The translations under genes were made by a program, and so were the position numbers. The notes beneath the pieces are model-generated. The model was not told the origin of the DNA and ran no database searches. It was given only the letters and a program-made list of their open reading frames with translations. Below, one piece after another: positions 20,334-43,400 of a stretch of 64,000 nucleotides of DNA. This DNA comes from Prosthecobacter sp. SYSU 5D2 (lineage in GTDB: Bacteria > Verrucomicrobiota > Verrucomicrobiia > Verrucomicrobiales > Verrucomicrobiaceae), in contig NZ_JBBYXL010000009.1 of NCBI RefSeq assembly GCF_039655865.1, positions 124,001-188,000 on the forward strand, given 5' to 3'. Every line of letters starts with the position of its first letter. Within the stretch, counting starts at the first letter, position 1.

Positions 20334-21779
20334 TCACTTGGCTTTTTTGTTCTTCTTGCCTTTCGGACGCGGCGGCTCGGACGCGATTTTGGCGCCATTG
20401 TCCTCCGGCATGGAGCGGTGCCAGGCGACGGCGGCGGTGGTCAGGCGTTTCACCAGTTCGGGCTCTTTGGCGGCCAGATCGGTTGTTTCAGCCCGGTCGC
20501 GCGCCAGGTCGTAGAGTTGGGGTTGGCTGCCGTCGTAGTCACAAAGCAGCTTCCATTTGCCCTCGCGCATGGCCAGGTCCGGCTGGGCGGCGGGAACCAT
20601 GGGTGCCCAGAATTTCCGGTCGGGTGGACGCCGCCAGAAAAGCGGGGCCTGCCGTCCGCCTTCACTGCGGCCTGTCAGGGCGGCCGAGACATCCTCGCCA
20701 TCAAAGGCCACGTCCGCAGGGGCGCTCGCGCCTGCCAGCTTCAGCAGCGAAGGCACCAGGTCAAAGGCTGCAAACACCGTGGTCTCATCATGCGTGCCCC
20801 CTTTTCCATCTGCGATGACACCCGGCCCCCAGACGACCAGGGGTGAGCGGATGCCGCCTTCATAAATCTGTGTCTTGTGCCCACGGAACGGACCGGCGCT
20901 GCCCGCACCTGGCTCCGGTCCGTTGTCAGAGCAGACCAGGACCAGTGTATTGTCCCGCAGCTCCGGCGTACTGCGGATGTGATCAAACAGGCGGCCAAAC
21001 TGCCGGTCCATCTCCTCCAGAACGGAGAGATACAGGCCACGCTTGTCATCCGCCCATTTGCCCACCGGCGGCCAGTAAGGGCTGTGCACATCATCCGGCC
21101 ACAGGTTGACATAAAACGGCTTCTTGGCCGCCACCGCCTTTTTCATAAAGGGCAGCGCCGCATCAATGAAACCGCTGGTGATCTCCGACCGCTGCATCCA
21201 TGTCACCGGTTTTCCCAGGCGCTCGGCATCGCCCCAGATCTTCCCCGGTGCGATATCGCCGGGCTTCAGGGTCAGCGGCAGGAGCTTTGGCCCCATACCC
21301 TCAAAGTTTGTTAGACTTTCATCAAAGCCATAGGCCGTGATGGGGGGGGCATCATCCACATCGCGCTGGCCGCCAAGATGCCATTTGCCGAAATGGCCGG
21401 TGGCATAACCGTCCGCCTGCAGATACCGCGCCAGCGTGGGCGCCTGCGGATCCAGCCACTGGGCCACCCCGCGCCTATCATTCTCCGCGCGGTTGTTGAG
21501 GAACGAGGTGATCCGCCAGCGCTGCGGGTACTGCCCGGTCGTCAGCGCACAGCGGGAGGGCGAGCAGATGGGCGAGTTCACATAGAACTGTGAAAACCGA
21601 ATTCCCTCGGCCGCCAGACGGTCCACATTTGGCGTCTTCGCATCGGCATTGCCAAAGCAGGAAAAATCCCCCCAGCCCATGTCATCAATGAAGACCATGA
21701 CGATGTTGGGTCGCTGCTCCGCCGCAAATGCGGAGCCAAACATAACAAACAACGTAACAATGGATAAAAGCCGTTTCAT
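20334..21779 (-). CDS. Secreted sulfatase (S1 family, Cys-type)
   Basis: This 481-residue protein has a signal peptide (MKRLLSIVTLFVMFGSAFAA). The metal-binding DD pair is in VFIDDMGWGDFSCFGN near 31, and the formylglycine site is Cys72 in SPICSPSRCALTTG. GKWHLGG at 131 and CSDNGPEPGAG near 293 complete the S1 alkaline-phosphatase-superfamily active site. It should release sulfate from a carbohydrate sulfate ester after Cys72 is converted to formylglycine. The C-terminus is a Lys-rich tail (PKGKKNKKAK). This is the last sulfatase of the minus-strand operon, starting 6 bp after the stop of the previous gene, so the two are tightly coupled. The substrate cannot be read from the sequence. Confidence 0.93.
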   Translation of the reverse strand: MKRLLSIVTLFVMFGSAFAAEQRPNIVMVFIDDMGWGDFSCFGNADAKTPNVDRLAAEGIRFSQFYVNSPICSPSRCALTTGQYPQRWRITSFLNNRAENDRRGVAQWLDPQAPTLARYLQADGYATGHFGKWHLGGQRDVDDAPPITAYGFDESLTNFEGMGPKLLPLTLKPGDIAPGKIWGDAERLGKPVTWMQRSEITSGFIDAALPFMKKAVAAKKPFYVNLWPDDVHSPYWPPVGKWADDKRGLYLSVLEEMDRQFGRLFDHIRSTPELRDNTLVLVCSDNGPEPGAGSAGPFRGHKTQIYEGGIRSPLVVWGPGVIADGKGGTHDETTVFAAFDLVPSLLKLAGASAPADVAFDGEDVSAALTGRSEGGRQAPLFWRRPPDRKFWAPMVPAAQPDLAMREGKWKLLCDYDGSQPQLYDLARDRAETTDLAAKEPELVKRLTTAAVAWHRSMPEDNGAKIASEPPRPKGKKNKKAK

Positions 21780-23179: not shown

Positions 23180-23869
23180 TCAGCGTCGCTCCACCCGGAT
23201 GTCATCCAGTTCGATGCCTTCGGCACCGCCGTTTTGCATCCACAGCAGCTTGCGTTTGGCCGCGTTAAAATTGGCCCTCTTCAGCGCCTTCTTCCACAGC
23301 CCGTCATCCAGCGTGATATCCACCGTATCCTGGCGGAAGGCCAGTTTCAGCGTGTGCCATTCATTCTTGCCCAGGTCCGCCTTTTCCAGGGGGAGATGTT
23401 CGTTCAGCCTGTAGGCCCCGCTTACTTTGTCAGCAGGTCTGCCGGCTTTTTGCCGCATGGGATGGTCCGGGTCCAGAGTATGCGCATCCACCTGGAGCTG
23501 GACGCCGTTTCTCAGCAGCTTCACTCGGAGCATGTGGTCCACACTGCCAAAGCCGTCATCGCCATCCACAAAGAACCATATCCAGCCGCCTCCGCCCAGG
23601 TGCCGGTAGCGGAAGGAGATGTCCATGTCCGTTCCTTCCACCGGCAGGTACACCATGGGCGGATATTTTCCACCACTACTCCCGTGCGTCCACAGCATGC
23701 CGTCACGCAGCTCCGTGTTTTTGTTTGGAACGGGCGTGGTGAAGCGCTTCGCATCCTGCTCTTTTTCAAAGTCCAGGTGCAGGGTTTCCGGCTCAGCCGC
23801 AGCAACCGTCCAGGCGGCGGCCAAAAGCCCGCCGCACCCCATTAAAATCCGCCTCATGGTCATTCGCAT
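23180..23869 (-). CDS. Secreted concanavalin/lectin-like protein (DUF1080-like)
   Basis: This 229-residue protein has an N-terminal signal (MRRILMGCGGLLAAAWTVAAA after two alternative ATGs). A single beta-rich domain follows: LHLDFEKEQDAKRFTTPVP, LRDGMLWTHGSSGGKYPPM, DMDISFRYRHLGGGGWIWFF, and KNEWHTLKLAFRQDTVDITLDD near 160. It ends EGIELDDIRVERR. This is the concanavalin-like/DUF1080 style of sandwich found in 3-keto-disaccharide hydrolases and carbohydrate-binding proteins. I see no decisive catalytic motif. It lies between two sulfatase genes of the operon with gaps of 6 and 20 bp, so a role in binding or cleaving the same sulfated glycan is inferred. Confidence 0.75.
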   Translation of the reverse strand: MRMTMRRILMGCGGLLAAAWTVAAAEPETLHLDFEKEQDAKRFTTPVPNKNTELRDGMLWTHGSSGGKYPPMVYLPVEGTDMDISFRYRHLGGGGWIWFFVDGDDGFGSVDHMLRVKLLRNGVQLQVDAHTLDPDHPMRQKAGRPADKVSGAYRLNEHLPLEKADLGKNEWHTLKLAFRQDTVDITLDDGLWKKALKRANFNAAKRKLLWMQNGGAEGIELDDIRVERR

Positions 23870-23875
23870 CGTTTG

Positions 23876-25672
23876 TTAGAATTCCCAAGATTGCATCTTG
23901 CCGTCTTTCCCGCGCATTTGCAGGGAGAGTATCTCCACATTCCCCACCGCGCCCGGCATGATCCGCACATGGATCATCCGTCCGACCACCGGCAGATCCA
24001 CCGTCACCTCCTGGAAGCTGTCTCCGCCTGCATGGTCAAAGCTGACCGTGTTTTCCTTCAGGAAATCCTTTTGCTCATGCGTCCTCCAGGAGAAGGAACC
24101 CTGCCCGCCTTTCTGGCTGCGAATCTTCAGCGTCACGCTCACCGGGCCGGCCAGGTTGCGGATGTCGGCATTCGCCAGGAAAGGGCGCGCGCCTTTGCCG
24201 GCCTTGGCATCCACTGTCAGCAGCAGCGCCTTGTCCTTCACGCTCAGGCTGCCATTGCGTGCCAGCCAGCCCTGGATGCCCACGGCGGCCTTGGACGCTC
24301 CAGCCGGATTCAGAGGAACGGTTTTGCCCTCCAGGTAATGATCAAAATAATCATGCCAGACCTGCGCCATCGGCCCCAGAGCAAGGCCGGGCGGGTTCAG
24401 TTCATCGCACCAGGTTTTTAATTGGGTGCGCAGCCGCGCAGCCACTTCAGGATGCTGGTCCGCCACGTTGTTTTTTTCCTCCAGGTCCGTGCCCAAGTTA
24501 TAGAGATACTCCCGGTCACCGCCGCGCAGCAGCTTCCAGTTGCCCTCGCGGATCGCGCTCTGAGCCATCCACCGCCACATCAGCGCCGCATGCGGAGGCT
24601 CCTTCACGTCTCCTTTTAAAAAGGGCAGCAGATTGACTCCGTCCAGATCCCCCGGCTTCGTTTCGATGCCCGCCTGCGCCGCCGCCGTGGCTGCGACATC
24701 CAGCGCGCTGATGGGATGGTCAAACTCCTGCCCGCCTGGAACGGTGCCCGGCCAGGCGATGACAAAGGGCACATGCATGCCGCCTTCGGACAGCATGCCT
24801 TTCTCGCCATTCAGCGGTGTGTTCAGGCTGCCGTCCCAGCCGCCTGGATCGCCCTTGAGGGGTGAGTCCACCTTGTGGATTTTCAGCGGTGCGCCGTTGT
24901 CACCGATGAAAAAGATCAGCGTCTTTTCCGTCAGGCCGTGCTTCTTCAGCGTCTCCGTGATCAATCCCACGCCGTCATCCACAGCGGAGATCATCGCCAG
25001 CGCCTGCCGCCGCCGTTCCGGCATTTCACCCGGAAAGCGGTCCGTGTATTTCTTCGGCGCGTCCAGCGGCGTGTGGGGTGCACGATAGGCCACATACAGG
25101 AAAAACGGCTCCGCTTTGTACCTCTCGATCACGCCCGCCGCCGCCTGGCTGCAGGCATCCAGGTGATACATCTCCGCCGGAAAATTTCCCAGGGGCACAT
25201 CCGTCCCTTCCGCCGTGATGTTGGCGCTGAAGGGTCTTTGCGCATGCTGGGAAAACACGTGCTTGAAGCCATGCTTGGAGATTTCCTCCTGTGGTCCCAG
25301 ATGCCATTTGCCAAACTGCGCGGTCACATAACCTGCTTTTTGCAGCCGCGTCGCGATGGTCGTCTCCTTGTTAAATCCATCCAGCTCGGACTGATTGGAA
25401 TCCAGGTTGAAGCGACCCTGGAACTTCCCTGTCATCAGTCCGCCGCGCGAGGGCACACACTGCGGAGCGGTGCTGTAACCATGCCTGGCCAGCACGCCGC
25501 TGCGCGCCAGCGCATCCAGGTGCGGGGTGCGGATGTCCTTCAGCACGCCCTGGATGCCCAGGTCCGCATAACCATGGTCATCCGTATAAAACAAAATGAT
25601 GTTAGGCCGGTCAGCCGCCCGCAGGCCGCTCACTGCACAAACCACCGCCGCAAACAGCATTAAAATCTTCAT
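23876..25672 (-). CDS. Secreted sulfatase with C-terminal beta-sandwich
   Basis: This 598-residue protein has a signal peptide (MKILMLFAAVVCAVSGLRAA) and the metal motif LFYTDDHGYADLG. The formylglycine site is Cys72 in APQCVPSRGGLMTG (C-V-P-S-R). GKWHLGPQEE lies near 122 and FFIGDNGAPLK near 255. The catalytic module ends near residue 420. The last ~130 residues form a beta-sandwich (LAGPVSVTLKIRSQKGGQGS, then QEVTVDLPVVGRMIHVRIMP). It aligns with the tails of the sulfatases at 30126 and 32168. That tail may bind carbohydrate or anchor the enzyme. The gap to the next gene downstream is 6 bp. Confidence 0.93.
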   Translation of the reverse strand: MKILMLFAAVVCAVSGLRAADRPNIILFYTDDHGYADLGIQGVLKDIRTPHLDALARSGVLARHGYSTAPQCVPSRGGLMTGKFQGRFNLDSNQSELDGFNKETTIATRLQKAGYVTAQFGKWHLGPQEEISKHGFKHVFSQHAQRPFSANITAEGTDVPLGNFPAEMYHLDACSQAAAGVIERYKAEPFFLYVAYRAPHTPLDAPKKYTDRFPGEMPERRRQALAMISAVDDGVGLITETLKKHGLTEKTLIFFIGDNGAPLKIHKVDSPLKGDPGGWDGSLNTPLNGEKGMLSEGGMHVPFVIAWPGTVPGGQEFDHPISALDVAATAAAQAGIETKPGDLDGVNLLPFLKGDVKEPPHAALMWRWMAQSAIREGNWKLLRGGDREYLYNLGTDLEEKNNVADQHPEVAARLRTQLKTWCDELNPPGLALGPMAQVWHDYFDHYLEGKTVPLNPAGASKAAVGIQGWLARNGSLSVKDKALLLTVDAKAGKGARPFLANADIRNLAGPVSVTLKIRSQKGGQGSFSWRTHEQKDFLKENTVSFDHAGGDSFQEVTVDLPVVGRMIHVRIMPGAVGNVEILSLQMRGKDGKMQSWEF

Positions 25673-25698: not shown

Positions 25699-26349
25699 TC
25701 AGCCTTTGGGTTTGGCATGCCACAGGTTCACGTTTTTAAACTGCGCGCCCTGCCCTTTCACGATCAGCGCCACGATGCCCTTGGCATCCTTGAAGCGCTC
25801 ATGGGTCCCCTCCACCACATGGCCGTCCACCTGTGCGCGGTAGCGGTCGCCAATGATCTCCACGGTCAGATCATGCCAGGCCTCCGGGTCCACCGGGGTC
25901 TTGATCTCCTTCAGCTTCACCGCCTTCGTCGTCTTGGCGATGCCGGACATCCTCTGGATCCAGATGCCGTCCTTGCTGATGAAGGTGCGCCCGAGGTGAT
26001 GGTTGGGCGCGATCGTGTCCCGGCAGCCAAAGGCCACATGCTCAGCCTTCCCCAGGCGGAACTGCGCGGTGAGGATCATGTCCATGGCCTCCAGCCGCCA
26101 GGTGCAGGAGGAAGCGTGGTGATCCGCCTCCAGCTCATCCCCGTGCATCACGCCGTCCTTCACCGTCCATTCACCGATGGCCGCCTGCCATCCATTGATC
26201 ACGCCCTTGCGCGTCGGTGGCGCCGGCTGGTCGAAAGGGGTCGCGACGATGAGCTTTGTCGCCTCTCCGATGACCGTGCCCTTGGGTGGTGACTGGGAAA
26301 AGGCGGCTGCAGCGGCCAAACAAATGATACTGGTGATTAATGATTTCAT
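25699..26349 (-). CDS. Secreted DUF1080-like protein (3-keto-disaccharide hydrolase-like fold)
   Basis: This protein has 216 residues from the ATG at 26349. Reading in from 26382 would overlap the upstream stop and add no signal. The signal peptide is MKSLITSIICLAAAAAFSQ. The body has the DUF1080 rhythm: WQAAIGEWTVKDGVMHGDEL near 55, ILTAQFRLGKAEHVAFGCRD near 90, WHDLTVEIIGDRYRAQVDGHVVEGTHE near 155, and FKNVNLWHAKP at the end. DUF1080 proteins include 3-keto-glucoside hydrolases, and many members have unknown activity. It sits in the sulfatase operon, 11 bp after one sulfatase and 26 bp before the next. Confidence 0.75.
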   Translation of the reverse strand: MKSLITSIICLAAAAAFSQSPPKGTVIGEATKLIVATPFDQPAPPTRKGVINGWQAAIGEWTVKDGVMHGDELEADHHASSCTWRLEAMDMILTAQFRLGKAEHVAFGCRDTIAPNHHLGRTFISKDGIWIQRMSGIAKTTKAVKLKEIKTPVDPEAWHDLTVEIIGDRYRAQVDGHVVEGTHERFKDAKGIVALIVKGQGAQFKNVNLWHAKPKG

Positions 26350-26360
26350 GATATTTTGTT

Positions 26361-27890
26361 TTATTCGGCCAGTGACTTCCATTCAGCCAGGTCTTCATTG
26401 CTTCCGCTGACCTGCCCAGGCTTGGGCGGCAGCGGTCCTGGCAGGCGCAGCACCGGATGGATGTGCGGCTGGAAAGACTGGTCAAATTCCTGCGCCTTCT
26501 TCAGCAGCCGGGCCACGATCTCAGGATGCTTCGCGGCCACATCCACCTGCTCCCCAGGGTCCGCCGTCAGGTTATACAAGGCGGCTTCCGGCCAGAGGCG
26601 GTGCTGGCGCTCGAACAAGCCCGGCTGATGCTCAAACCACAGGCTGGCCACGCGCATCTCAGGCAGTTTTGAAACGGGCAGGATCAGCTTCCACTCCCCT
26701 TCCCTCACGGCCTGGAGCTGCACACCGAAGTAATGTGGGATGAGCCGGTCCTGCGCTTTTCCTTTGGCTTCACCTTTGAGCAGCGCGCTGATGTCCATGC
26801 CGTCCAGCTTCACTGCCGGGTCAGGCTTCACGCCGGCCAGGGCCGCGAGGGTGGGGAAAAAATCCAGGGTCGAGCATGGGGCCGTTTCCACTCTGCCTGC
26901 AGGAATTGTCTTGGGCCACCAGGCGATGAAGGGCACGCGCACGCCGCCTTCCCAAGTGGTGCCTTTGCCCATTTTCAGCGGCTCATTGCTGCCGCCGTTG
27001 CTGCGTCCGGGGAAGCGCTCGGCCTTGGCTTTTGCCTTGCCCTTGGCGACACCTTTTTTGCCCATGGAGGCTCCGTTGTCGGAAGTGAAAAGGACCAACG
27101 TCTTTTCTGCAATCCCCAGTTCCGCCAGGAGGTCCACGATGCGGCCCGTGCTCGCATCCAGCTCCTGGATGCAGTCGCCATACACGCCGTCTTTTGAAGT
27201 GCCCTCAAAGACGGGGGAGGCATACTGCGGGATGTGCGGCATCGTGTGCGGCAGATAGAGGAAGAAGGGCTTCTCCCGCTGCCTGCGGATGAAGTCCAGC
27301 GCCCGCTGCGTGTACTTTTCCGTCAGCAGGGCCTGGTCCACCGGTGCTTCCACGATGCGGTCGCCGTCCCGCAGGGTCAGCGGCTCGAAGTCACTCAACT
27401 GGAAGAAGGCTTTCCCGGCTGTCCACTCCTCGGAGTCATTGGAATGGCGGAGGCCGAAGACCTCGTCAAAGCCCTGCTGCTGGGGCCGAAGTTCACGCCG
27501 CCAGCCGAGGTGCCATTTGCCAATGAGTGCTGTTGCGTAACCTGCCGGTTTCAGCATCTCCGCCAGCGTCACCTCCTCCGGCGGCAGACCGGTGTGCTCG
27601 GTGGGGAAAAGCACATACGGCACGCCGCAGCGGGCAGGCAGCCGCCCGGTCAGCAGCGCTGCGCGAGATGGGCTGCAAAAGGGCGATGCCACATAAAAAT
27701 CCGTGAAGCGCACGCCCTCCTGCGCCAGGCGGTCCAGCCGGGGCGTGGAGATGACCTTGGACCCGTAACAGCTCAGATCGCCATAGCCCAGGTCATCCGC
27801 GTTGATCAATATGATGTTAGGCCGCTCCACCGCCGCCTGGAGAGGCAGCAGCGCACAGGCCGCGAAGCAAAGGGTGGAGAGTGCTTTCAT
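26361..27890 (-). CDS. Secreted sulfatase (S1 family, Cys-type)
   Basis: This protein has 509 residues from the ATG at 27890; a GTG at 27914 overlapping the previous stop is possible. The signal peptide is [37 protein letters not shown] holds the metal Asp pair. The formylglycine site is Cys72 in ASPFCSPSRAALLTG. GKWHLGWRRELRPQQQGF and LFTSDNGASMGKKG follow. An insertion rich in Lys/Ala (GKAKAKAERFPGRSNGG) sits after the SDNGAS motif. The general pattern is arylsulfatase A/GALNS-like, with no substrate evidence. The gene is in mid-operon with short gaps on both sides. Confidence 0.93.
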   Translation of the reverse strand: MKALSTLCFAACALLPLQAAVERPNIILINADDLGYGDLSCYGSKVISTPRLDRLAQEGVRFTDFYVASPFCSPSRAALLTGRLPARCGVPYVLFPTEHTGLPPEEVTLAEMLKPAGYATALIGKWHLGWRRELRPQQQGFDEVFGLRHSNDSEEWTAGKAFFQLSDFEPLTLRDGDRIVEAPVDQALLTEKYTQRALDFIRRQREKPFFLYLPHTMPHIPQYASPVFEGTSKDGVYGDCIQELDASTGRIVDLLAELGIAEKTLVLFTSDNGASMGKKGVAKGKAKAKAERFPGRSNGGSNEPLKMGKGTTWEGGVRVPFIAWWPKTIPAGRVETAPCSTLDFFPTLAALAGVKPDPAVKLDGMDISALLKGEAKGKAQDRLIPHYFGVQLQAVREGEWKLILPVSKLPEMRVASLWFEHQPGLFERQHRLWPEAALYNLTADPGEQVDVAAKHPEIVARLLKKAQEFDQSFQPHIHPVLRLPGPLPPKPGQVSGSNEDLAEWKSLAE

Positions 27891-27910
27891 CACAGGGGGG
27901 GCGCTTACGG

Positions 27911-30097
27911 TCACTTGTCGCCATATCGCGGAGCCGTCCAGCCTTTGGGCAGCTTGCCCTGCGGCTTCACGCCATAGGCATCCGCCGGGATGGAGTGGTC
28001 CTTGGCCGTCTGCAGGGGCAGGTCATCCGGCAGGTGCTTGATCTTGAAATCCTTGTATTGAATCTTCATGGCCGGGCCGACATGCACCTGCACGGCCAGC
28101 ACGCCTTCCAGCGAGCGGCCTTTTTCATCCAGGTCAATCAGATCGGCGGTTTGATGGCCGTCAATCCAGTGCTGGTAATGGTTGCCGCGCACCAGCACGC
28201 GGTACTCATGCCATTCATCGGGAGCGAATTCCTTCACCGGCATCTTGCCCACCACCCAAGGTTCGCCAGAGGTGTCCACGATCACTTTTTCACCGGTATG
28301 CGAGAGGATGCGGCGGCCTTTTTCCTCATACAGCATGCCGTTGTAGTCCGGGTTGTTCGCCACAATGTCGCACTGGTAACCGGTCACCACATCCAGGCCC
28401 AGGTCCGGGCGCGAGGTGCCGCGATATTGCAGACCGCTGTTGCCCCCGGCGGTGACTTTAACCTGCACCCGCAGGTCAAAGTTGCGCACGGTGGAGCCGG
28501 TCCAGGTGATGAAACGGTTCATCTTCAGCGAGCCGTCCGTGACGCCGGTCAGGGCGCCGTCTTCAAAGGACCAGTACTGATCGTCACCGCTCCAGCCGCG
28601 CAGGTTTTTGCCGTTGAGCAGATTCACAAAACCGTCCGGGCCGGGCTTCTCCGTCACGGCTGCGGAAGCCACCGGATGCGGCGGGGTGGATGCGGTGAAC
28701 GGGCCTTTCCTTGGCCCCAGCGGACCGCCGAGTTTGGCCACCACCTGCTTGGTGCGCTCACGCATTTCCTTCAGCGTCGTGGCGTGCTGCGGATCTTCCG
28801 CCAGGTTCACCAGCTCATCCGGGTCCTTCTTCAGATCATAGAGGAACTCATAGTTATCGTGGTCAAAGTAGCAGGCATATTTGTATTGCTCAGTGCGCAG
28901 GCCCTCATAGGGCGGGATGCGGTTGCGCACGGCAAAGTGCTCATGAAAGGTCTCCGTGCGCCAGTCCGCCGGTTTTTCACCGGCCACCAGCGGCTTCAGG
29001 CTGCGTCCCTGGTAGCGCTCCGGCACCGGCACGCCGGCCCAGTCCAGAAAGGTGGCGGGCAGGTCCAGGTTCAGCGCCATGGCCTCGCTCACCTTGCCCT
29101 GCTTCTCTTTGGGTGCGCGCAGGTCGGCCACGATGAGCGGCACGCGCAAGGATTCTTCAAAGTGCGACCACTTGCCTGCCAGGCCGCGATTGGCCATGTG
29201 ATAACCATTGTCAGCGGAGTAAACGACGATCGTGTTTTCCGCCAGGCCGGCCTCTTCCAGCGCCTTCATGAACCGGCCGATCTCGTTGTCAATGCCGCTC
29301 ACCATGCGCAGATACGCACGCATGTTGGTCTGGTACTTTTCCTCCGTGTTCCAGCGCCAGAAGTAACGCTCACGGGTGATGGAGGTTTTGAAAAAGTCCG
29401 GCAGCTTTTCAAAGATGGCCGGGTCGTTTAAACGCGGCGCATACATCTCCATGTCCTCATACATGCCGTTGGCGCTGGAGGGCCAGGCGAAGTGGCCGAT
29501 GCCGGGGCGGCGGTCGCTGTCCTCAGCATGGCAGGCATTGAACCACAGGTTCAGCGCAAAGGGCTTGTCCTTGGGCTGGTTCTTCACAAACTCGATGCCG
29601 CGATCAATGATGAGCTCGGTCTCATGGCGCATGCTGCCGTCCGGCTGCTTTTTATAAAAGGGATTGCGCCCGATGTCTTCAAACTCGTCGAAGTGCCGCG
29701 CCGGTTTGTCGCCCTTGGCCAGCTTCGTATGCCACTTGCCATAGTGGCCGGTGCGGTAGCCGTTCTCGCGCAGGATGTCGGTGTAGAGGGACTTGGAGAC
29801 TTCGGGGCGGGGCTGCTCCGGGTCTTCCGGCGTGCCGTAGCTGCGGCCGGTCAGGCCCGTGAGGATGGTGCTGCGGCTGACCCAGCAGATGGACTGGCTG
29901 ACGAACGCATTTTGAAACCGCACGCCGCGATCCGCCAGGGAATCAATGTTCGGCGTCTTGGCAATGGGATGGCCATAGCAGCCCAGGGAGCTGGAGGTCT
30001 GGTCATCAGTGAAAAAGAAGACGATGTTAGGCTGCGCCGCCTGCACCAGGTGGGTGAAGGCGCATGCCAGCGCGGCAAGGAGAAGAACGGGTTTCAT
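27911..30097 (-). CDS. Sulfatase fused to DUF1080 (3-keto-disaccharide hydrolase-like) domain, variant CxVxR site
   Basis: This protein has 728 residues from the ATG at 30097; the longer frame to 30160 lacks a signal. The signal peptide is MKPVLLLAALACAFTHLVQA. The N-terminal S1 sulfatase module (about 24-470) has FFFTDDQTSSSLGCYG, GKWHTKLAKG and VVYSADNGYHMANRG. The maturation segment reads SICWVSRSTILTG (Cys71), with Val in place of the usual Pro of CxPxR. The C-terminal module (about 490-700) is DUF1080-like: FVNLLNGKNLRGWSGDDQYW, NSGLQYRGTSRPDLG, and EWHEYRVLVRGNHYQHWIDG. The fusion places a sulfate-ester hydrolase and a putative 3-keto-glycoside hydrolase in one exported chain. It is central in the operon. 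Confidence 0.9.
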   Translation of the reverse strand: MKPVLLLAALACAFTHLVQAAQPNIVFFFTDDQTSSSLGCYGHPIAKTPNIDSLADRGVRFQNAFVSQSICWVSRSTILTGLTGRSYGTPEDPEQPRPEVSKSLYTDILRENGYRTGHYGKWHTKLAKGDKPARHFDEFEDIGRNPFYKKQPDGSMRHETELIIDRGIEFVKNQPKDKPFALNLWFNACHAEDSDRRPGIGHFAWPSSANGMYEDMEMYAPRLNDPAIFEKLPDFFKTSITRERYFWRWNTEEKYQTNMRAYLRMVSGIDNEIGRFMKALEEAGLAENTIVVYSADNGYHMANRGLAGKWSHFEESLRVPLIVADLRAPKEKQGKVSEAMALNLDLPATFLDWAGVPVPERYQGRSLKPLVAGEKPADWRTETFHEHFAVRNRIPPYEGLRTEQYKYACYFDHDNYEFLYDLKKDPDELVNLAEDPQHATTLKEMRERTKQVVAKLGGPLGPRKGPFTASTPPHPVASAAVTEKPGPDGFVNLLNGKNLRGWSGDDQYWSFEDGALTGVTDGSLKMNRFITWTGSTVRNFDLRVQVKVTAGGNSGLQYRGTSRPDLGLDVVTGYQCDIVANNPDYNGMLYEEKGRRILSHTGEKVIVDTSGEPWVVGKMPVKEFAPDEWHEYRVLVRGNHYQHWIDGHQTADLIDLDEKGRSLEGVLAVQVHVGPAMKIQYKDFKIKHLPDDLPLQTAKDHSIPADAYGVKPQGKLPKGWTAPRYGDK

Positions 30098-30125
30098 AAA
30101 GGGGTTGGGAAAAGGAAAAAATAAA

Positions 30126-32150
30126 TCAGGGCCAGTTTTGCAGAACAAGGCCCTGCGCATCCAGAAGTTTCAGCTCTTTAATGCGGACGCTGCCGGGACC
30201 GGCGCAGGCATCCAGGCGGAAGGAATGCAGGGTGTCCGATGTCTCCAGCTTCACGGTGTGGCTGTGCCACTGCCCGTCATGCTGCACATCAAAGGTCAGG
30301 TGTTTGCCCTTGGGCAGGATCGTCTGCGCATCCGTGGTGTAATACACTTCCCCACCGCCGCTGGCCTGGCTCTGCACGCTGAAGACGAGGCTGTAAGGCC
30401 CGGTCACCGACACGCCCGGCACGCCGTTAAAGGCCAGCCCAGGGTCCTCGCCAGTGCACTCCAGCACCAGCTCGGCACCTTCCACCGTCAGCTTGGTGCC
30501 CACACGTGCACGCGGCATCTTGGTTCCGGCAGCCGCCGCTTTGGCCATGCCTTTACCCTTGCCCTTGCGCGCTTTTTCTTTGCCCGCCTCATGGCGCATG
30601 CTGCTGGCTTTGGCATCTCCATAGACGGTCCATTCACGATGCCGCTGCTCCGTAGCCTCCGCTGCCACCGGCTTGCGCTCACCTTCCGGTGCTTTCAGGA
30701 CGTTCTCCGTCATGTCATGCCATTGCTTGGACATCTTCTCCACGATCTCCGGGTGCTTGCCGGCCAGATCATTCAGCTCGGTGCGGTCTTCGGCGATGTT
30801 ATAAAGCTCCCACGGCTGGCTTTGAAAACTGACGAGCTTCCAGTCCCCGTCGCGCAGGCCCCGGTCACTGGCGAACAGCAGATGAATGGGCGGGCGTGAG
30901 GCCACCTTTTCCCCATTAAACACGGGCTTCAGCGAAACACCGGCCAATGGCGAAGGATCACGCCCCGGCCAAGTCTCCGGCACCTGTGCTCCGGCAATGT
31001 CGGCCAGGGTCGGCAGCACATCCACCAGGTGCGCGGGAGAGTGCACCAATGCACCCGGTGCGGTCTTCAGCCCGGCGGGCCAGTGGACGATGGCGGGGGT
31101 GGAAATGCCGCCTTCAAACTGGTTCTGCTTGTAGTAGCGGAAGGGCGAATTGCGCGCCCAGGCCCAGCCGGTGCTGTCGCTCCACCGCACGCCGGGTTCA
31201 TACGGCTCGCGATCACGGTCTGTGCTTCGGCGGTCATAGGGGCAGGCGCCGTTGTCGGAGAGAAAAAGGATCAGCGTATTGTCCAGCTCGCCCTTGGTCT
31301 CCAGGTCCCGCACCAGCCGGCCGATCTCCTGGTCTACGCGGTCGATCATGGCCGCATAAGCCGTCATGCGGCGGGCCTCCCAGCTCTGCTCCTCCGGCGT
31401 GAGGCTGTCCCAGGCCGCGACATGATCCGGGCGTGGGGAGGCTTGGAGCTCGCGGCCAAAAAGGCCTAACTCTTTTTGCTTCAACAGGCGTTTTTCACGG
31501 ATGGCATCCCAGCCTGCATCATACTTGCCGAGGTACTTTTGATAGTCCGCCTTCAGCGGCTGCAAGGGTGCATGGGGTGCGTTAAAGGCCAGGTAGAGAA
31601 ACCAGGGTTTCTTTTCCCCGCGCGCCTCTTCCATGAAACCGAGCGCATGGTCCACCTTCGCCACCGTAGTATAAAATTCCTTCTTCGGCACCTGCCAGGG
31701 CTGGCCGTTCAGGCGGAAGGACTTGTCGCCTTTATAGTAGTCCGTGGCTCCGGACAGATGCCCAAAGTAACGCTGAAAACCAAAGTCGGTCGGCTCCTTG
31801 GACAGATGCCACTTGCCGCTCATGGCGGTGAAATACCCTGCCGGGGCGAGCACCTCGGGAATGATGACCGCCTTTTTCAGGCTCTCATCCCCGGCCTGCC
31901 TGCACCAGCGTCCGCTCAGCAGGCTGACGCGCGTGGAGTGGCACTTGGCGGTGTTGTAAAACTGGGTGAAGCGCAGCCCGTCCGCCGCCAGCCGGTCCAG
32001 GTTCGGGGTGGCGATCTCGCTGCCGTAACAGCCGAGGTCGGAATAACCCAGGTCATCGGTGAGGATGAGCAGCACATTCGGTTTATCCGCCAGGGCGGCA
32101 CCGGCCAGCAGACTGCCGATGAGGACCAGTTTGCACAAATAATGTTTCAT
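30126..32150 (-). CDS. Secreted sulfatase with C-terminal beta-sandwich, variant CxSxR site
   Basis: This 674-residue protein has a signal peptide (MKHYLCKLVLIGSLLAGAALA). LILTDDLGYSDLGCYGSE holds the metal Asp pair. The maturation segment is YNTAKCHSTRVSLLSG (Cys70), with Ser where CxPxR has Pro. GKWHLSKEPTDFGF and LFLSDNGACPYDRRS follow. The catalytic part ends near 510. It is followed by a Lys/Ala/Gly-rich linker (KARKGKGKGMAKAAAAG) and a beta-sandwich of about 115 residues (YSLVFSVQSQASGGGEVYY, DVQHDGQWHSHTVKLETSD). That sandwich closely matches the tail of the next upstream sulfatase. The gaps to its neighbours are 17 and 28 bp. Confidence 0.92.
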   Translation of the reverse strand: MKHYLCKLVLIGSLLAGAALADKPNVLLILTDDLGYSDLGCYGSEIATPNLDRLAADGLRFTQFYNTAKCHSTRVSLLSGRWCRQAGDESLKKAVIIPEVLAPAGYFTAMSGKWHLSKEPTDFGFQRYFGHLSGATDYYKGDKSFRLNGQPWQVPKKEFYTTVAKVDHALGFMEEARGEKKPWFLYLAFNAPHAPLQPLKADYQKYLGKYDAGWDAIREKRLLKQKELGLFGRELQASPRPDHVAAWDSLTPEEQSWEARRMTAYAAMIDRVDQEIGRLVRDLETKGELDNTLILFLSDNGACPYDRRSTDRDREPYEPGVRWSDSTGWAWARNSPFRYYKQNQFEGGISTPAIVHWPAGLKTAPGALVHSPAHLVDVLPTLADIAGAQVPETWPGRDPSPLAGVSLKPVFNGEKVASRPPIHLLFASDRGLRDGDWKLVSFQSQPWELYNIAEDRTELNDLAGKHPEIVEKMSKQWHDMTENVLKAPEGERKPVAAEATEQRHREWTVYGDAKASSMRHEAGKEKARKGKGKGMAKAAAAGTKMPRARVGTKLTVEGAELVLECTGEDPGLAFNGVPGVSVTGPYSLVFSVQSQASGGGEVYYTTDAQTILPKGKHLTFDVQHDGQWHSHTVKLETSDTLHSFRLDACAGPGSVRIKELKLLDAQGLVLQNWP

Positions 32151-32167: not shown

Positions 32168-34081
32168 TCAGGGAACCAGGTTCACGCTGCTTCCGGCGGC
32201 GTCGGTCAGCTCCACTTGGGTCAGGACGATCTCCCCTGCCCCCGCAGCGGGATCAATTCGGAAGGCCTGGATCGTCTTTGCAGGCAGCTTCACTTCATAG
32301 TCATGAAACTGGCCGTCATGCTTCACCGCCACCGGCACGGAGCGGTCCTTGTGAAAGGGTTCCTTGGCGGTGCGGTTAAAATAGATGAGGCCGGGGCCTT
32401 TGGCGCTGCTTTTCAGGCGCAGCTTCACGGTGAAGGGCCCCTGCGCTTTGGCGGGCAGCTTTTGCGTGGCGATCCATGGATCCCCGCCGGTGGACTTCAC
32501 CTTGAGCGCGCCCTTTTCCACGGTGATCTGCGCTTGTTTGCTGGACTGCCAGCCGCCGACCACCGCCCTGGGCGGTGCCTTGGCCGCGCCCTTGGGCTTT
32601 TGTTTGCCCTCCAGCTCCGGCCGGTATTTGGCAGGATCAAAGGCAGGATTTGCCACGGGCAGGACGGCCTTCGTCTCCGCCAAGAAGCCGTCAATCAGCG
32701 CGCCCAGTTCGGTCACCAGTTCCGTCTTCTGCGCGGCCAGATTGTTCTGCTCTCCCAGGTCCGCGTTCAGGTCATAGAGCAGGTGCCGGTGCGCGCCTTT
32801 TTCACCACCATGGAAGATGCGGATCAGCTTCCAGTCCCCGCGATGCACAGACACTGCCGGTGGCAGCCAGTCTGGCACGCCGGGATCATGCGGGAAGTAT
32901 TGGAAGACTGCCTTGCCGGGCAGGTCGCCACCCTTCAAGGCTGGCAGGATGCTGGCTCCATCAAAGATCTGATTCGCTTCGGGAGACAGCGACAGGCCTT
33001 CCAGCAGGGTGGGATAAAAATCCTCGCTCTGCACCAGGGCGTCGCTGCGGCTGGCGGGCTCCGTCACGCCCGGCCAGGCGACGATGAGAGGCACGCGCAC
33101 GCCGCCCTCAAACATCGTTGCTTTGCCACCGCGCAGGGGCGTGTTGCTGGTGGGGGTGGTGCCGTCCACTTCGTTGTACATGTTGCCGCCGTTGTCGGAG
33201 GTGAAGATGACGATGGTGCGGTCGGCTATTTTGAGCCGGTCCAGCGTGTCCAGCAGCGTACCCACGGCATCGTCCATGCTCTCCACCATCGCCGCGTAGG
33301 TCGGGCTGCGCTGCGGATCCGCCGGGTCTATCCGTTGGCGGTGTTTTTCAATCAGCGCCTTCTTGGCATCAAAGGGCGCATGCACACTGAACTGCCAGTA
33401 GTTCACATAAAACGGCGCGTCCTTGTGCTGCTCCATCCAGGCGGAGGCCTCGGCGGCCATGCGGTCCTCGATGTGCTCGCCGGGGCTGTTTTCTTTGAAA
33501 TCGGCATACTTCCAGGGTGCCACAAAACTGCCAGCCGGGCCGGGGCCGGACCAGTGCGGAATGTCCACATCAAAGCCCTGCTCCAGCGGGGAATACGGCT
33601 CCGGCCCCAAGTGCCATTTGCCAAAATGGGCGGTGGCATAACCGGCGGCCTTCAGCGTCTTGGCCAATGTTGGATAGGTGGTGTTCAACCGCGTCACCGG
33701 ATCTGGAGCGATGGACTTTTTGTCAGCGGGAGCGGCCTTGCCCTGGGTGGCCTGGAGCACCACTTTGGGCAGGTGGCAGTTGGGCGTAGTGATGCCCGTC
33801 CGCGCGGGGCTCAGGCCGGTGAGAATGGCGGAGCGTGTGGGGGAGCAAAGCGGGCTGGCGGAATACCCGCGCGTGAAGGTCATGCCTCGCTTGGCCAGTC
33901 GGTCAATATTCGGCGTCTGGTAGTATTTCGTCGTCCCGTGCAGCGTGGTATCGCTCCAGCCCAGGTCATCGGCGAGAATGAGGACCACATTGGGGCGGTC
34001 TGGCGTCTGGGCAGCGACGGTTCCGCACACCAGGCAGAACAGGCTTGCCAAAAGAGCACGGATTGAGGGATAAAAAGGCAT
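32168..34081 (-). CDS. Secreted sulfatase with C-terminal beta-sandwich; first gene of the operon
   Basis: This protein has 637 residues from the ATG at 34081. The reading frame stays open to 34246, but that extension is Arg/Trp-rich, overlaps the divergent sulfatase and precedes the true signal peptide [36 protein letters not shown], Cys79 in [33 protein letters not shown] and [14 protein letters not shown] make a complete S1 active site. The C-terminal sandwich (about 510-637; [38 protein letters not shown]) aligns with that of the sulfatase at 30126, including HDGQ-W/F-H. It heads a nine-gene minus-strand operon and is divergent, 76 bp away, from another sulfatase. Confidence 0.93.
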
Positions 34082-34157
34082 ACAGCGCAGACGAAGCAAA
34101 AAGGCCGAACTTTCTTCGCAATGCCACCACCCCCTATCCCGTTTCCACATTTCCACC
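34082..34157. promoter_or_regulatory. Divergent intergenic region between two sulfatase transcription units
   Basis: Only 76 bp separate the ATG of the operon-leading sulfatase (minus) from the ATG of the divergent sulfatase (plus). Both promoters must lie here or within the flanking coding sequence, so shared regulation is likely. I see no convincing -35/-10 pair, sigma-54 element or strong palindrome. Confidence 0.4.
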
Positions 34158-35684
34158 ATGCTCCCGTTCCGACCTCTCCTGACCGCCGCCTGCCTCTGCT
34201 TGACCGCCGCATTTGCCGCAGACAAGCCCAACATCATTGTCATCATGGCGGATGACCTGGGGTATGGCGATGTGGGCTGCTACGGGGCCACGGCGGTGCA
34301 GACGCCGAACATTGACCGCCTGGCCAAAGAGGGCCTGCGTTTTACCAGCGGCTACTGCTCCGCCTCCACCTGCACGCCGACGCGTTTTTCGCTGCTCACG
34401 GGCACCTATGCCTTCCGGCAGGCGGGCACCGGCATCGCCCCGCCAGCGGCCCCGGCCATCATCATGCCCGGCACGGTGACGCTGCCCTCGCTTTTGAAAC
34501 AAGGCGGGTATAAAACCGCCGTCATCGGCAAGTGGCACCTGGGCCTGGGCGATCCTGAACCGGACTGGAATGGCGATCTGAAACCAGGTCCGCTGGAGAT
34601 CGGCTTTGACCACTGCCTGCTGCTGCCGACCACCAATGACCGTGTACCGCAGGTCTATGTGGAGGACCATCGTGTGCTGAACCTGGACCCGAAAGACCCG
34701 CTGTGGGTGGGCAATAAGGCCCCCTCCGAAGACCATCCCACCGGCATCACTCACCGCGACACTTTGAAGATGGACTGGAGCCACGGGCATAACCAGACCA
34801 TCCACAACGGCATCAGCCGCATCGGTTTTTACACCGGCGCCGAGGCCGCGCGCTTCCGCGATGAAGACCTGGCCGACCGCTGGGTGAAACACTCCGATGC
34901 GTGGATCGAGGCCAACCGCGAGTCGCCCTTTTTCCTCTACTTTGCCAGCCATGACATCCACGTCCCGCGCATCCCGCATGAGCGCTTCCAGGGCAAGACC
35001 ACGCTGGGCTTGCGCGGCGACAGCATTGTCCAGCTCGACTGGTGCGTGGGCGAGCTGATGAAGACGCTGGACCGCCTGAAGCTGACGGACAACACCCTCA
35101 TCATCTTCTGCTCCGACAACGGCCCCGTGCTGGATGACGGGTACAAAGACGGAGCCGTGGAAAAGATCGGCAGCCACCAGCCCGCCGGACCGTATAGCGG
35201 CGGCAAATACAGCGTCCTGGAAGGCGGCACCCGCACCCCCTTCATCGCCCGCTGGCCGGGCCGCATCCAGCCCGGTGTCTCGGATGAAGTCGTCTGCACC
35301 GTGGACCTGGCCGCCAGCCTCGCCGCACTCAACAACATTCCCCTGCCGGACACCGCCTGCCTGGACAGCATCAACATCCTCCCCGCTCTGCTCGGCGAAG
35401 CCGGAGCCCAAGGCCGCGACCACCTCCTGCAGCAGGACAACGGCGTCAGCGGCAACTTCGGCCTGCGCATGGGCGACTGGAAGCTCGTGCGGATGAAAAA
35501 GAAAGGCAAAACGCAGGCCGTCGTGACCGTCAAGTCCCGCCCTGAGAATCCCCCGCTCCATGCCCTCTACCACCTGCCGGACGATCCTTCTGAATCTAAG
35601 AACGTGAGCGAGAAGAATCCGGAAAAGACGAAGGAGCTGATTGAGAAACTGGACGCTCTGCTCGCGGCTCCGCAAAGCCGGTGA
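34158..35684 (+). CDS. Secreted sulfatase (S1 family, Cys-type), divergent from the operon
   Basis: This 508-residue protein has a signal peptide ([20 protein letters not shown]). [16 protein letters not shown] carries the metal Asp pair. The formylglycine site is Cys72 in [15 protein letters not shown] (C-T-P-T-R). [18 protein letters not shown] and [15 protein letters not shown] follow, and an N-terminal-type arylsulfatase core ends in [18 protein letters not shown]. It lacks the C-terminal sandwich found in its operon relatives. Its promoter region is shared with the minus-strand sulfatase operon. It is convergent with a serine hydrolase gene. Confidence 0.93.
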
Positions 35685-40365: not shown

Positions 40366-40486
40366 ATGCTTATGCGGGAGGGGCAATGCGCCAGTGGCGG
40401 GAAATGATACTTCCATGCTCAAAACGGGCTGAGGGCGGGCGCATGGACTGAGTCATGCTTTGCGAAAGGCTCCCCCTCCGCTCTTT

Positions 40487-43400
40487 ATGTTCTGCCTGAC
40501 CTCCCCCCGGTTAGTTCTCATGGCTGCGGCCATGCTGACTCTTCCCACCCTTGTGGCCCAAACCCCTGTTTACATCTGGGACGGCAATCCAGCTACCGCA
40601 GGAGTCATCGACAACACCGCCGGTAACTGGACCGCGCCCAACTGGTATGACGGCACCGGTTATCAGACCTGGAATCCAGCCGCCATCGCCCAGTTCGGTG
40701 CCGCCACGTCCAGTGCAGGAGCCGCCATTACGGTCAATGAAGCCATCACCCTCGCGGGCATGAACTTCAGGCCCTTCACCTCCCTGCCCAGTGCCAATCG
40801 TGCCTACTCTTTCACCGGCACCGGCTCGCTGAATTTCACCGCAGGCTCCATCATTGACGTCGCCAGCGGCACCACCAACGGCAGTTCAGGCTTCATCACC
40901 TTCGCTGTACCGTTGGTCGGGAATGATCTGACCTTCAGCAAAGCGGATGGCACCGCCCTGGGGTACATGACTTTCTCTGCTGCCAGCCCTGATCTCACCG
41001 GCACCCTTTTTCTGAAAACCACCGGCACTGCCACAGCGGGCATTTATGCCAGCATCGTGGCCGCCCGTTTCACAGGTCTGGATGCCATTGATATCGAGGC
41101 CGGCTCCATGATCGCCACCTCAGGTGCCGGGAATTTTGACATCCCGCTCATCATCGCAGGCAACGGCGGCAGCCAGTGGGGCGCCATCCGGGTGGGTTCA
41201 TCCAGCACGAACTTCACCGAGGGCATCACCCTCAGTGGAGATGCCCGTTTTCATACCCATATCAATGTTAACAGCACCACCGTCTCCTCCGTCATCAGCG
41301 AGACCGCAGGCGGCAGCAAGGCATTCAACCGAACCGCCTTTTCCCCGGTCAATACCCTGTTACCTCTGGCCGCCACCTTCACCGCAGCCAATACCTTCAC
41401 AGGCAACACCATCCTTGGCCGCACCTTTAACCTGGGCAGCACCAGCGAGACCTCAGCCACCGAAGGCGGTCTAACCATCCTGGACTTCTCCGCCACCGGG
41501 GCACCTGCCAATGACATCTTTTACAACGGCACCGCCAAAGGCGGCCTCATCATGAACGGCGGCCTGGCCACCACCACGAAGCTGCACATGACCGGCAAAT
41601 CCGGCACCGACAACTCCCAGACCTTTTCCAGCCTGCACATCCAGCAGGGAGCCAATGCCATTGAAGCCTTTTCCGCGACGGGCGGCAGCATCACCGTGGC
41701 CCTGGGAGACATCACCCGCACCGAAGTCAGCTCCCTGGCCATTCGCGGCCCGGCCAGCGGCAGCATCACCGGCACCCTCGGTGGCTCCGGCAACGGCTTC
41801 ATCGGCCCCTGGGCCACTTATACAACGGCGGATGGCAGCAGCGCCACCTGGGCCAGCTTGAAAGACGGAGCCGTCAGCGCCTTCACCGGAGAGACCGAGT
41901 ATGAAACAGGCACACTGCTAAGCAGCGATGCCAGCAGCCACCTCCGCATCTCCTCCCTTTCCACCGGAGATGTCTCCCTGGCAACGGGCACCACCACCGT
42001 GGGCACCTTTTCCATGACAGATGCGGCAGCCAGGCAAATAGGCGCAGTCACAGACCAGACGCTCCGCCTGGGCGTGGACGGTGGCATTCAAATGATCAAC
42101 GGAGCTGCCAGCCTGACCGTTGGCATAGCAGGACAAAGCAGCACCCTGACCGCAGGCGGAGCCGATGATACCGCCGGCCAGGTCATCCTGACCAACCTCT
42201 CTTCGAATGGCACTCTGATGGTGAATTCCTCCATCACCAATAACGGCAGCGGAGCCGTCTCCCTGATGATCAACGGCACCGGCCGCACCATCCTCACCGC
42301 AGCCAGCAGCTTCACCGGCATGGTGGGCATCTACAGCGGTGTGCTGGAAATCCGCGACAGCCTGGCACTAGGAACCACCACTGGCACAGTCACCAAAGTC
42401 ATCACCGGAGCCTCCCTAAACCTCGCCGGTGACCTCACCCTCGCCGAAAGCCTCCAGATCAACGGTCACGGCATCGCCTCAGACGGAGCCATCCGAAATC
42501 TCAGCGGCACCAACACCATCACCTCCCTCGTGCGCGTGCAGAGCAGCTCCCGCATCTCCTCAGACAGCGGCACCCTGATCCTCAGCGGTGGCATCTCCGC
42601 CACCAACAGCGGCACCTCCGTCACTTTCTCCGGCGCAGGGGACATTGAGATGAACAGCAACATCACCACCACCTCAGGCCTCCTCATCAAGGATGGCCCA
42701 GGCTCCCTCACCCTGCGCGGCACCAGTACCGCCACCGGTAACTCCCTTTTGAACATGGGCCGCCTGCACCTGGACTTTTCCGGCACCACCGCACCGGCCA
42801 GCAACATCCTTTACAGCACCGCACCCGCCGGAGCCATTCTTAGCATGGGCAACGGCTCCATGCTGGAGCTCACAGGCAAAAGCGGCGCCACTAACAGCCA
42901 GACCTTCACCAACCTCACCCTCACCACCGCAGGCAGCTACCGCATCTCCGCCAACCAGAACGATGCCGCCAGCCTCAGCCTCAATTTTAACACCCTCACC
43001 CGCCCTGCCGCCGCTCTCGTGCGCTTTGATCTCCCCACCACCGGCTCCTTCACCACCACCTCCGGCGTGGACAATGCCATCCTTGCCACCACCACCGGAA
43101 TCCCTTATGCCACCGTCGGCCTGAATGACTGGGCAGCCACGACAGCCGCCGTCTCCTCCCGGCGCAACATCGTTGGTCTCAGCAGTCTCGATCTCTATAC
43201 CCCCAGCACATTCGACACCCTTTCCGGTCATGCCGATGCCATCGTGCCACTGACCACCCTGACAGCGGACGCCAGCATTTCCACCCTGCGGTTCAACCTT
43301 CCCCAGGCCACCACCATCACCCAGGATGCCCCTGGCCGCACCCTCACCACCGGCGGCATTTTGGTCACGCCGGAAGTCGGTGCTCATGATACCACCATCT

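Follow-up and report, generated by a model that had tools for sequence, protein, structure and literature searches.

An exported sulfatase–DUF1080 fusion conserved across Verrucomicrobia and Planctomycetes, with a possible role in 3-keto processing of sulfated glycans

Results

A sulfatase–DUF1080 fusion within a run of sulfatase genes

In the window, the 64,000-nucleotide stretch of Prosthecobacter sp. SYSU 5D2 DNA analysed here, nine minus-strand genes run from 34246 down to 20334 with a spacing of -35 to +26 bases. They encode seven sulfatases plus a pair of small PF06439-like proteins; an additional, divergent sulfatase lies beside the operon at 34158-35684. The third gene of the run, counted among the seven, encodes a sulfatase joined to a domain of family PF06439 (3keto-disac_hyd, formerly DUF1080). 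Residue numbers for the fusion protein follow the 749-aa open frame throughout.

32168..34246 (-): first operon sulfatase (CSPTR; Pfam), true start probably downstream of 34246
30126..32150 (-): operon sulfatase (CHSTR; ORF list, Pfam)
27911..30097 (-): sulfatase–DUF1080 fusion gene, 728 aa from Met22 (profile and conservation evidence)
30035..30097 (-): predicted signal peptide of the fusion, MKPVLLLAALACAFTHLVQAA (sequence inspection)
28742..30031 (-): S1 sulfatase domain, residues 44-473 (Pfam, PDB match)
29885..29887 (-): Cys92 of SICWVSR (C-x-V-x-R), predicted to become formylglycine, invariant in the alignment
28652..28711 (-): inter-domain linker, residues 484-503 (low-confidence stretch of the full-length model)
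28037..28633 (-): PF06439/DUF1080 domain, residues 510-708 (Pfam, structural model, Foldseek)
28433..28441 (-): N574-S-G576, family-wide groove motif (alignments)
28367..28378 (-): Y595-Q-C-D598, with acid and amide in exchanged places compared with E-x-Q members (alignments)
28322..28330 (-): Y611-E-E613, subgroup motif Y[DE]E..R (alignments)
28082..28090 (-): Q691-V-H693, its histidine matching that of QDH in BT2157 (alignments)
26361..27914 (-): operon sulfatase (CSPSR; Pfam)
25699..26382 (-): small exported PF06439-like/CBM66-like protein without N-S-G and Q-x-H (Pfam, alignment)
23876..25672 (-): operon sulfatase (CVPSR; Pfam)
23180..23869 (-): small exported lectin-like protein, sub-threshold for PF06439, without the groove residues
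21786..23171 (-): operon sulfatase (CSPTR; Pfam)
20334..21779 (-): operon sulfatase (CSPSR; Pfam), last of the run

The longest open frame of the fusion gene spans 27911-30160 and encodes 749 aa. We prefer the start at 30097 (Met22, MKPVLLLAALACAFTHLVQA) over the one at 30160 because the signal peptide begins at Met22. Pfam places Sulfatase (residues 44-377, 7e-50), SGSH_C (330-473, 2.1e-31) and 3keto-disac_hyd (510-708, 2.9e-35; 122.5 bits against a cut-off of 26.8) in that order, all within the single open frame. Chance read-through between two genes is excluded, since full-length identity of 62-78% is kept in many genomes. The frame, the domains, the predicted signal peptide and this conservation confirm the first-pass annotation in its description of one exported protein that joins an S1 sulfatase to DUF1080. 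NCBIfam holds no specific name for the combination. The full-length AlphaFold model is poor (pTM 0.52) and was used solely to mark the linker.

The two small operon proteins had been called DUF1080-like (25699) and lectin-like (23180). The former passes the PF06439 profile with 35 bits (cut-off 26.8); for the latter, which falls just under the cut-off with 22 bits, lectin-like is a fair description. N-S-G and Q-x-H are absent from both in the alignment, and one of the two gives a weak CBM66 match (E 0.03). On these sequence features both look like binding modules rather than 3-keto enzymes, and because the two motifs are missing they add no 3-keto chemistry to the operon.

The sulfatase half resembles the sulfatase domain of an ulvan-locus fusion

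The best PDB match of the sulfatase half is 6hr5, at 290 bits and 37% identity over 446 aa, which leads the next match (206 bits) by 84 bits. From its PDB name (alpha-L-rhamnosidase/sulfatase, GH78), we take 6hr5 to be the sulfatase domain of P36 from the Formosa agariphila ulvan locus. Judged by this best PDB match, the half appears nearest to S1_25. P36_S1_25 takes the sulfate off terminal Rha3S; its fusion partner is a GH78 rhamnosidase, and the two domains act in consecutive steps (PMC8511951). P36, the closest structural relative of the sulfatase half, is like the present fusion in joining a sulfatase to a module that cleaves glycosidic bonds; the cleaving module is GH78 in P36 but DUF1080 here.

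The active-site residues D52, D53, C92, R96, K142, H144, H211, D317, N318 and K330 are invariant or nearly so, and the half is a type I sulfatase domain with a formylglycine motif and its metal and sulfate ligands kept. The motif departs from C-x-P/A-x-R: most fused copies have C-x-V-x-R, two have C-x-A-x-R, and 6hr5 has CAASR. The operon sulfatase at 30126-32150 (-) also has a variant motif, C-x-S-x-R (AKCHSTRVSLLSG) instead of C-x-P/A-x-R.

The DUF1080 half retains the groove residues of its family

The model of the DUF1080 half reaches a pLDDT of 89.5. Its best Foldseek matches are DUF1080 entries (E 4e-14 to 3e-8), followed by CBM66, and the 13 best-scoring distinct PDB entries are all DUF1080 proteins. 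The matches include 8rr2 and 9fbe, titled '3-keto-glycoside eliminase/hydratase', and 8tda and 8v31, titled '3-keto-2-hydroxy-glucal-hydratase'. TM-scores are modest (query TM 0.49-0.59), and the likeness to CBM66 reaches a target TM of 0.74. Judged by these four titles, elimination and hydration describe the reaction of characterised members better than hydrolysis does.

Across 19 fused and stand-alone relatives, N574, S575, G576, Q578, R580, Y595, Q596, D598, Y611, E612, E613, R616, W650, N660, H661, Q691 and H693 are invariant or nearly so. Several of them alternate along strands, the pattern expected of residues lining one face. Which of them are catalytic we infer from the titles of PDB entries, from the alignments and from a single later paper. 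N-S-G and Q-x-H are common to most other PF06439 members of the genome and align with PDB members too. The N-S-G and the aligned Q-x-H histidine are shared with the BT2157-type eliminase/hydratases (3osd, 8rr2, 9fbe, 8tda) and Alistipes AL2 (8v31), which have the same PF06439 fold at ~15-18% identity in structural alignment and, unlike the fused half, are not joined to a sulfatase. In BT2157 (3osd), H693 is matched by the histidine of QDH, chain position 250. An H275N substitution renders a B. thetaiotaomicron 3-keto-O-glycoside lyase hydration-deficient (PMC13273386), and H275 is most likely the histidine aligned with H693, since the offset of 25 would correspond to a removed signal peptide. 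The alignments, in which the groove residues including the Q-x-H histidine are kept, support a full, conserved family member in the fused DUF1080 half.

One difference from the BT2157 type, which counts against the 3-keto reading, lies on the central strand. At the E position of the BT2157 E-x-Q the fusion has Q596, with D598 two residues on (Y-Q-x-D), and this swap is subgroup-wide. In DUF1080 members where the alignment shows Y-Q-x-[DE] in place of E-x-Q, a Y-[DE]-E..R motif is present too, which in the fused half reads Y-E-E..R-R. The correlated swap could mark a different substrate or anomer. The only solved subgroup member that we found is the first domain of BT3469 (4jqt), which shares the Y-Q-x-[DE] and Y-D-E-x-R-R motifs; BT3469 is, unlike the fusion, a tandem DUF1080 protein without a sulfatase. 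We know of no reported activity for BT3469, nor of any member of the Y-Q-x-[DE] subgroup that has been assayed on a 3-keto substrate.

The fusion is conserved across two phyla and appears to have a single origin

The same two-domain protein occurs in ~24 genomes of Verrucomicrobia and Planctomycetes at 62-78% identity. A scan of named genomes places it on 17 contigs, some few of which are partial, with identities of 63-77%. These come from MAGs of Verrucomicrobia (Verrucomicrobiales, Akkermansiaceae) and of Planctomycetes, mostly Pirellulaceae; six further fusions were found in 58 other genomes of the same family. One of the 17 contigs, from a Rubripirellula MAG (L042:2747-4981), carries an in-frame stop that breaks the fusion near the junction of the halves.

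In separate trees of the two halves, a single branch sets all fused copies apart, with SH-aLRT support of 99 for the sulfatase half and 97 for the DUF1080 half; the apparently solo members inside the fused DUF1080 group are truncated or split fusion contigs. Because Verrucomicrobia and Planctomycetes are intermixed within the fused groups of both trees, we favour one fusion event followed by transfer, as this mixing suggests. Averaged over pairs, the fused sulfatase halves are 70.8% identical and the DUF1080 halves 69.5%, and from this equal conservation it follows that the DUF1080 half is not drifting. These comparisons indicate an old pairing of two known families, conserved widely in Verrucomicrobia and Planctomycetes. 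We found no description of a sulfatase–DUF1080 fusion in the open-access papers that our search covered.

The closest relatives of the two halves come from the same bacterial family. They are stand-alone PVC DUF1080 proteins, mostly of 264-318 aa and 66-73% identical, and CWVSR sulfatases that likewise stand alone (52-58% identical). Unlike the halves of the fusion, they are encoded by separate and mostly unlinked genes. Genomes without the fusion often have one or the other. Their co-occurrence is weak and carries no weight in our reading: both are present in 10 of 52 non-fusion genomes, one only in 21 and neither in 21. The close stand-alone DUF1080 occurs in no fusion genome, many of which are incomplete MAGs in which absence is not proof; the close stand-alone sulfatase accompanies the fusion in two genomes (G060, G075). 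Gene neighbourhoods of the fusion vary strongly between genomes.

Candidate 3-oxidases are encoded in the genome but not beside the fusion

The 5.87 Mb genome has 116 sulfatase-profile matches, 37 PF06439 matches and nine FGE-domain matches. It also encodes candidate oxidases: 41 Gfo/Idh/MocA matches; seven genes that match the BT_2158 glycoside 3-dehydrogenase model over nearly its full length (261-319 bits, all under the 750-bit equivalog cut-off); and one LacA-type subunit. The operon contains neither a Gfo/Idh nor a LacA match, nor does any lie within ~45 kb of the fusion; the nearest Gfo/Idh is >40 kb away. The locus differs in this respect from the BT2157-2160 type of 3-keto-glycan locus, in which a 3-dehydrogenase lies beside the DUF1080 gene. 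The first-pass annotation had suggested that the fusion and the two small genes together point to a 3-keto route for sulfated sugars. Neither of the two observations that it named as refuting was made: the fused half has its groove residues, and the genome encodes candidate 3-oxidases. The groove residues of the fused half and the Gfo/Idh and LacA genes of the genome speak for this proposal; the small DUF1080-like genes, devoid of N-S-G and Q-x-H, and the absence of a 3-oxidase from the operon and its surroundings speak against it.

Elsewhere, LacA and a GMC oxidoreductase lie 1.7 kb upstream of one fusion gene (L041), and an esterase, a hydroxypyruvate-isomerase-like TIM barrel and a PVC heme dehydrogenase-like protein follow another (L032). 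In two genomes of one genus (L086, L087), a Gfo/Idh gene is directly downstream of a stand-alone DUF1080 orthologue. A weak BLAST screen found Gfo/Idh near other fusion loci at 4 independent loci against ~2 expected, an enrichment that by this rough count is not significant and not clearly above chance. Of 25 genomes searched, one of them a sulfatase-only Aureibaculum, only 12 have a LacA match that passes the cut-off. These neighbour cases are few and suggestive, and the oxidase is the weak link of the 3-keto proposal.

Two further arrangements occur in the genome under study. In C10 (L093:10890-13889, -), a Gfo/Idh gene directly adjoins a tandem-DUF1080 gene, the only such adjacency among the PF06439 and PF01408 matches of the genome. 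In C4 (L094:5943-9536, -), a protein of 1197 aa combines DUF1080 with a module of PVC-type heme (Piru_Ver_Nterm) and CxxCH cytochrome. This paralogous DUF1080 is 43% identical to the fused half and likewise part of a multidomain protein, which carries a dehydrogenase-like/heme module where the fusion carries a sulfatase. Long open frames (1100-1300 aa) with a DUF1080 match occur commonly in the family; they may be oxidase–eliminase fusions.

Discussion

We propose that the fusion is an exported two-enzyme protein serving desulfation, external C3 oxidation and DUF1080-dependent elimination and hydration of a terminal sugar, a reading to which we give about even odds (roughly 0.5). The N-terminal S1_25-like half would act on a sulfated oligosaccharide and strip its terminal sugar of sulfate. 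A separate periplasmic oxidoreductase, possibly of the Gfo/Idh, LacA/GMC or heme dehydrogenase type, would then oxidise C3 of the bared sugar. Finally, the DUF1080 half would free the sugar by elimination of the aglycone and subsequent hydration of the 2-hydroxy-3-keto-glycal.

The pairing of the halves would make sense if the sulfate removed sits on C3, because 3-oxidation requires a free C3 hydroxyl. The 3-O position is that of P36_S1_25, to which the fusion clade is only 37% identical. Taken further, desulfation would license the route: on a terminal deoxy-sugar that carries sulfate, the sulfatase would specifically bare the C3 hydroxyl, an external 3-oxidase would act on it, and the fused DUF1080 would remove the sugar by elimination and hydration, so that PVC bacteria would have exchanged the rhamnosidase of the ulvan-type S1_25-GH78 fusion for 3-keto chemistry. 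We hold this narrower version to be tentative and rather doubtful.

The foremost rival, which we judge unlikely but well worth keeping in view, is that the DUF1080 half has no catalytic role and, as a CBM66-like module, anchors the sulfatase to its glycan. The two families share a fold, as the CBM66 target TM indicates, their annotations overlap (PMC5673643), and the two other PF06439-like proteins of the operon, which have no groove residues, resemble binding modules. The fused half, however, retains the N-S-G, the Q-x-H and other polar groove residues that both these neighbours have lost, is as conserved as the sulfatase half, and has close stand-alone orthologues, as expected of an enzyme.

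It is improbable, in our estimate, that the fusion serves co-secretion only, each half having a bond or substrate of its own and the DUF1080 half using 3-keto sugars made elsewhere. The highly variable neighbourhoods of the fusion, without a fixed oxidase partner, would fit such an arrangement, but a single fusion clade spanning two phyla with both halves conserved, and the consecutively acting halves of the parallel S1_25-GH78 fusion (PMC8511951), argue against it.

Also improbable, yet with the binding module one of the main rivals, is an ordinary glycoside hydrolase or endo-glycanase, with desulfation and hydrolysis but no oxidation. Such a role would follow the planctomycete DUF1080 endo-xanthanase THTE_1561, for which activity on native xanthan, on lichenan and on further glucans is reported (PMC10881899). 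Against it, the best-supported activity of the family, backed by ligand structures, is on 3-keto sugars and Caulobacter genetics tie DUF1080 to 3'-ketolactose (PMC9007349).

Under the proposed two-enzyme reading, the fusion bears on how PVC bacteria, which have very many sulfatases and DUF1080 proteins, degrade sulfated glycans, substrates that are hard to break down. The conserved fusion would link desulfation with the recently described oxidise–eliminate–hydrate pathway, and offers one protein on which to test that link.

Additional features of the window

The operon sulfatases at 23876-25672, 30126-32150 and 32168-34246 (all -) have similar-looking beta-rich C-terminal extensions of ~100 aa that carry no Pfam name and are possibly binding domains. 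Further along, at 40460-45055 (+), a 1531-aa open frame contains passenger-associated (PATR) autotransporter repeats.
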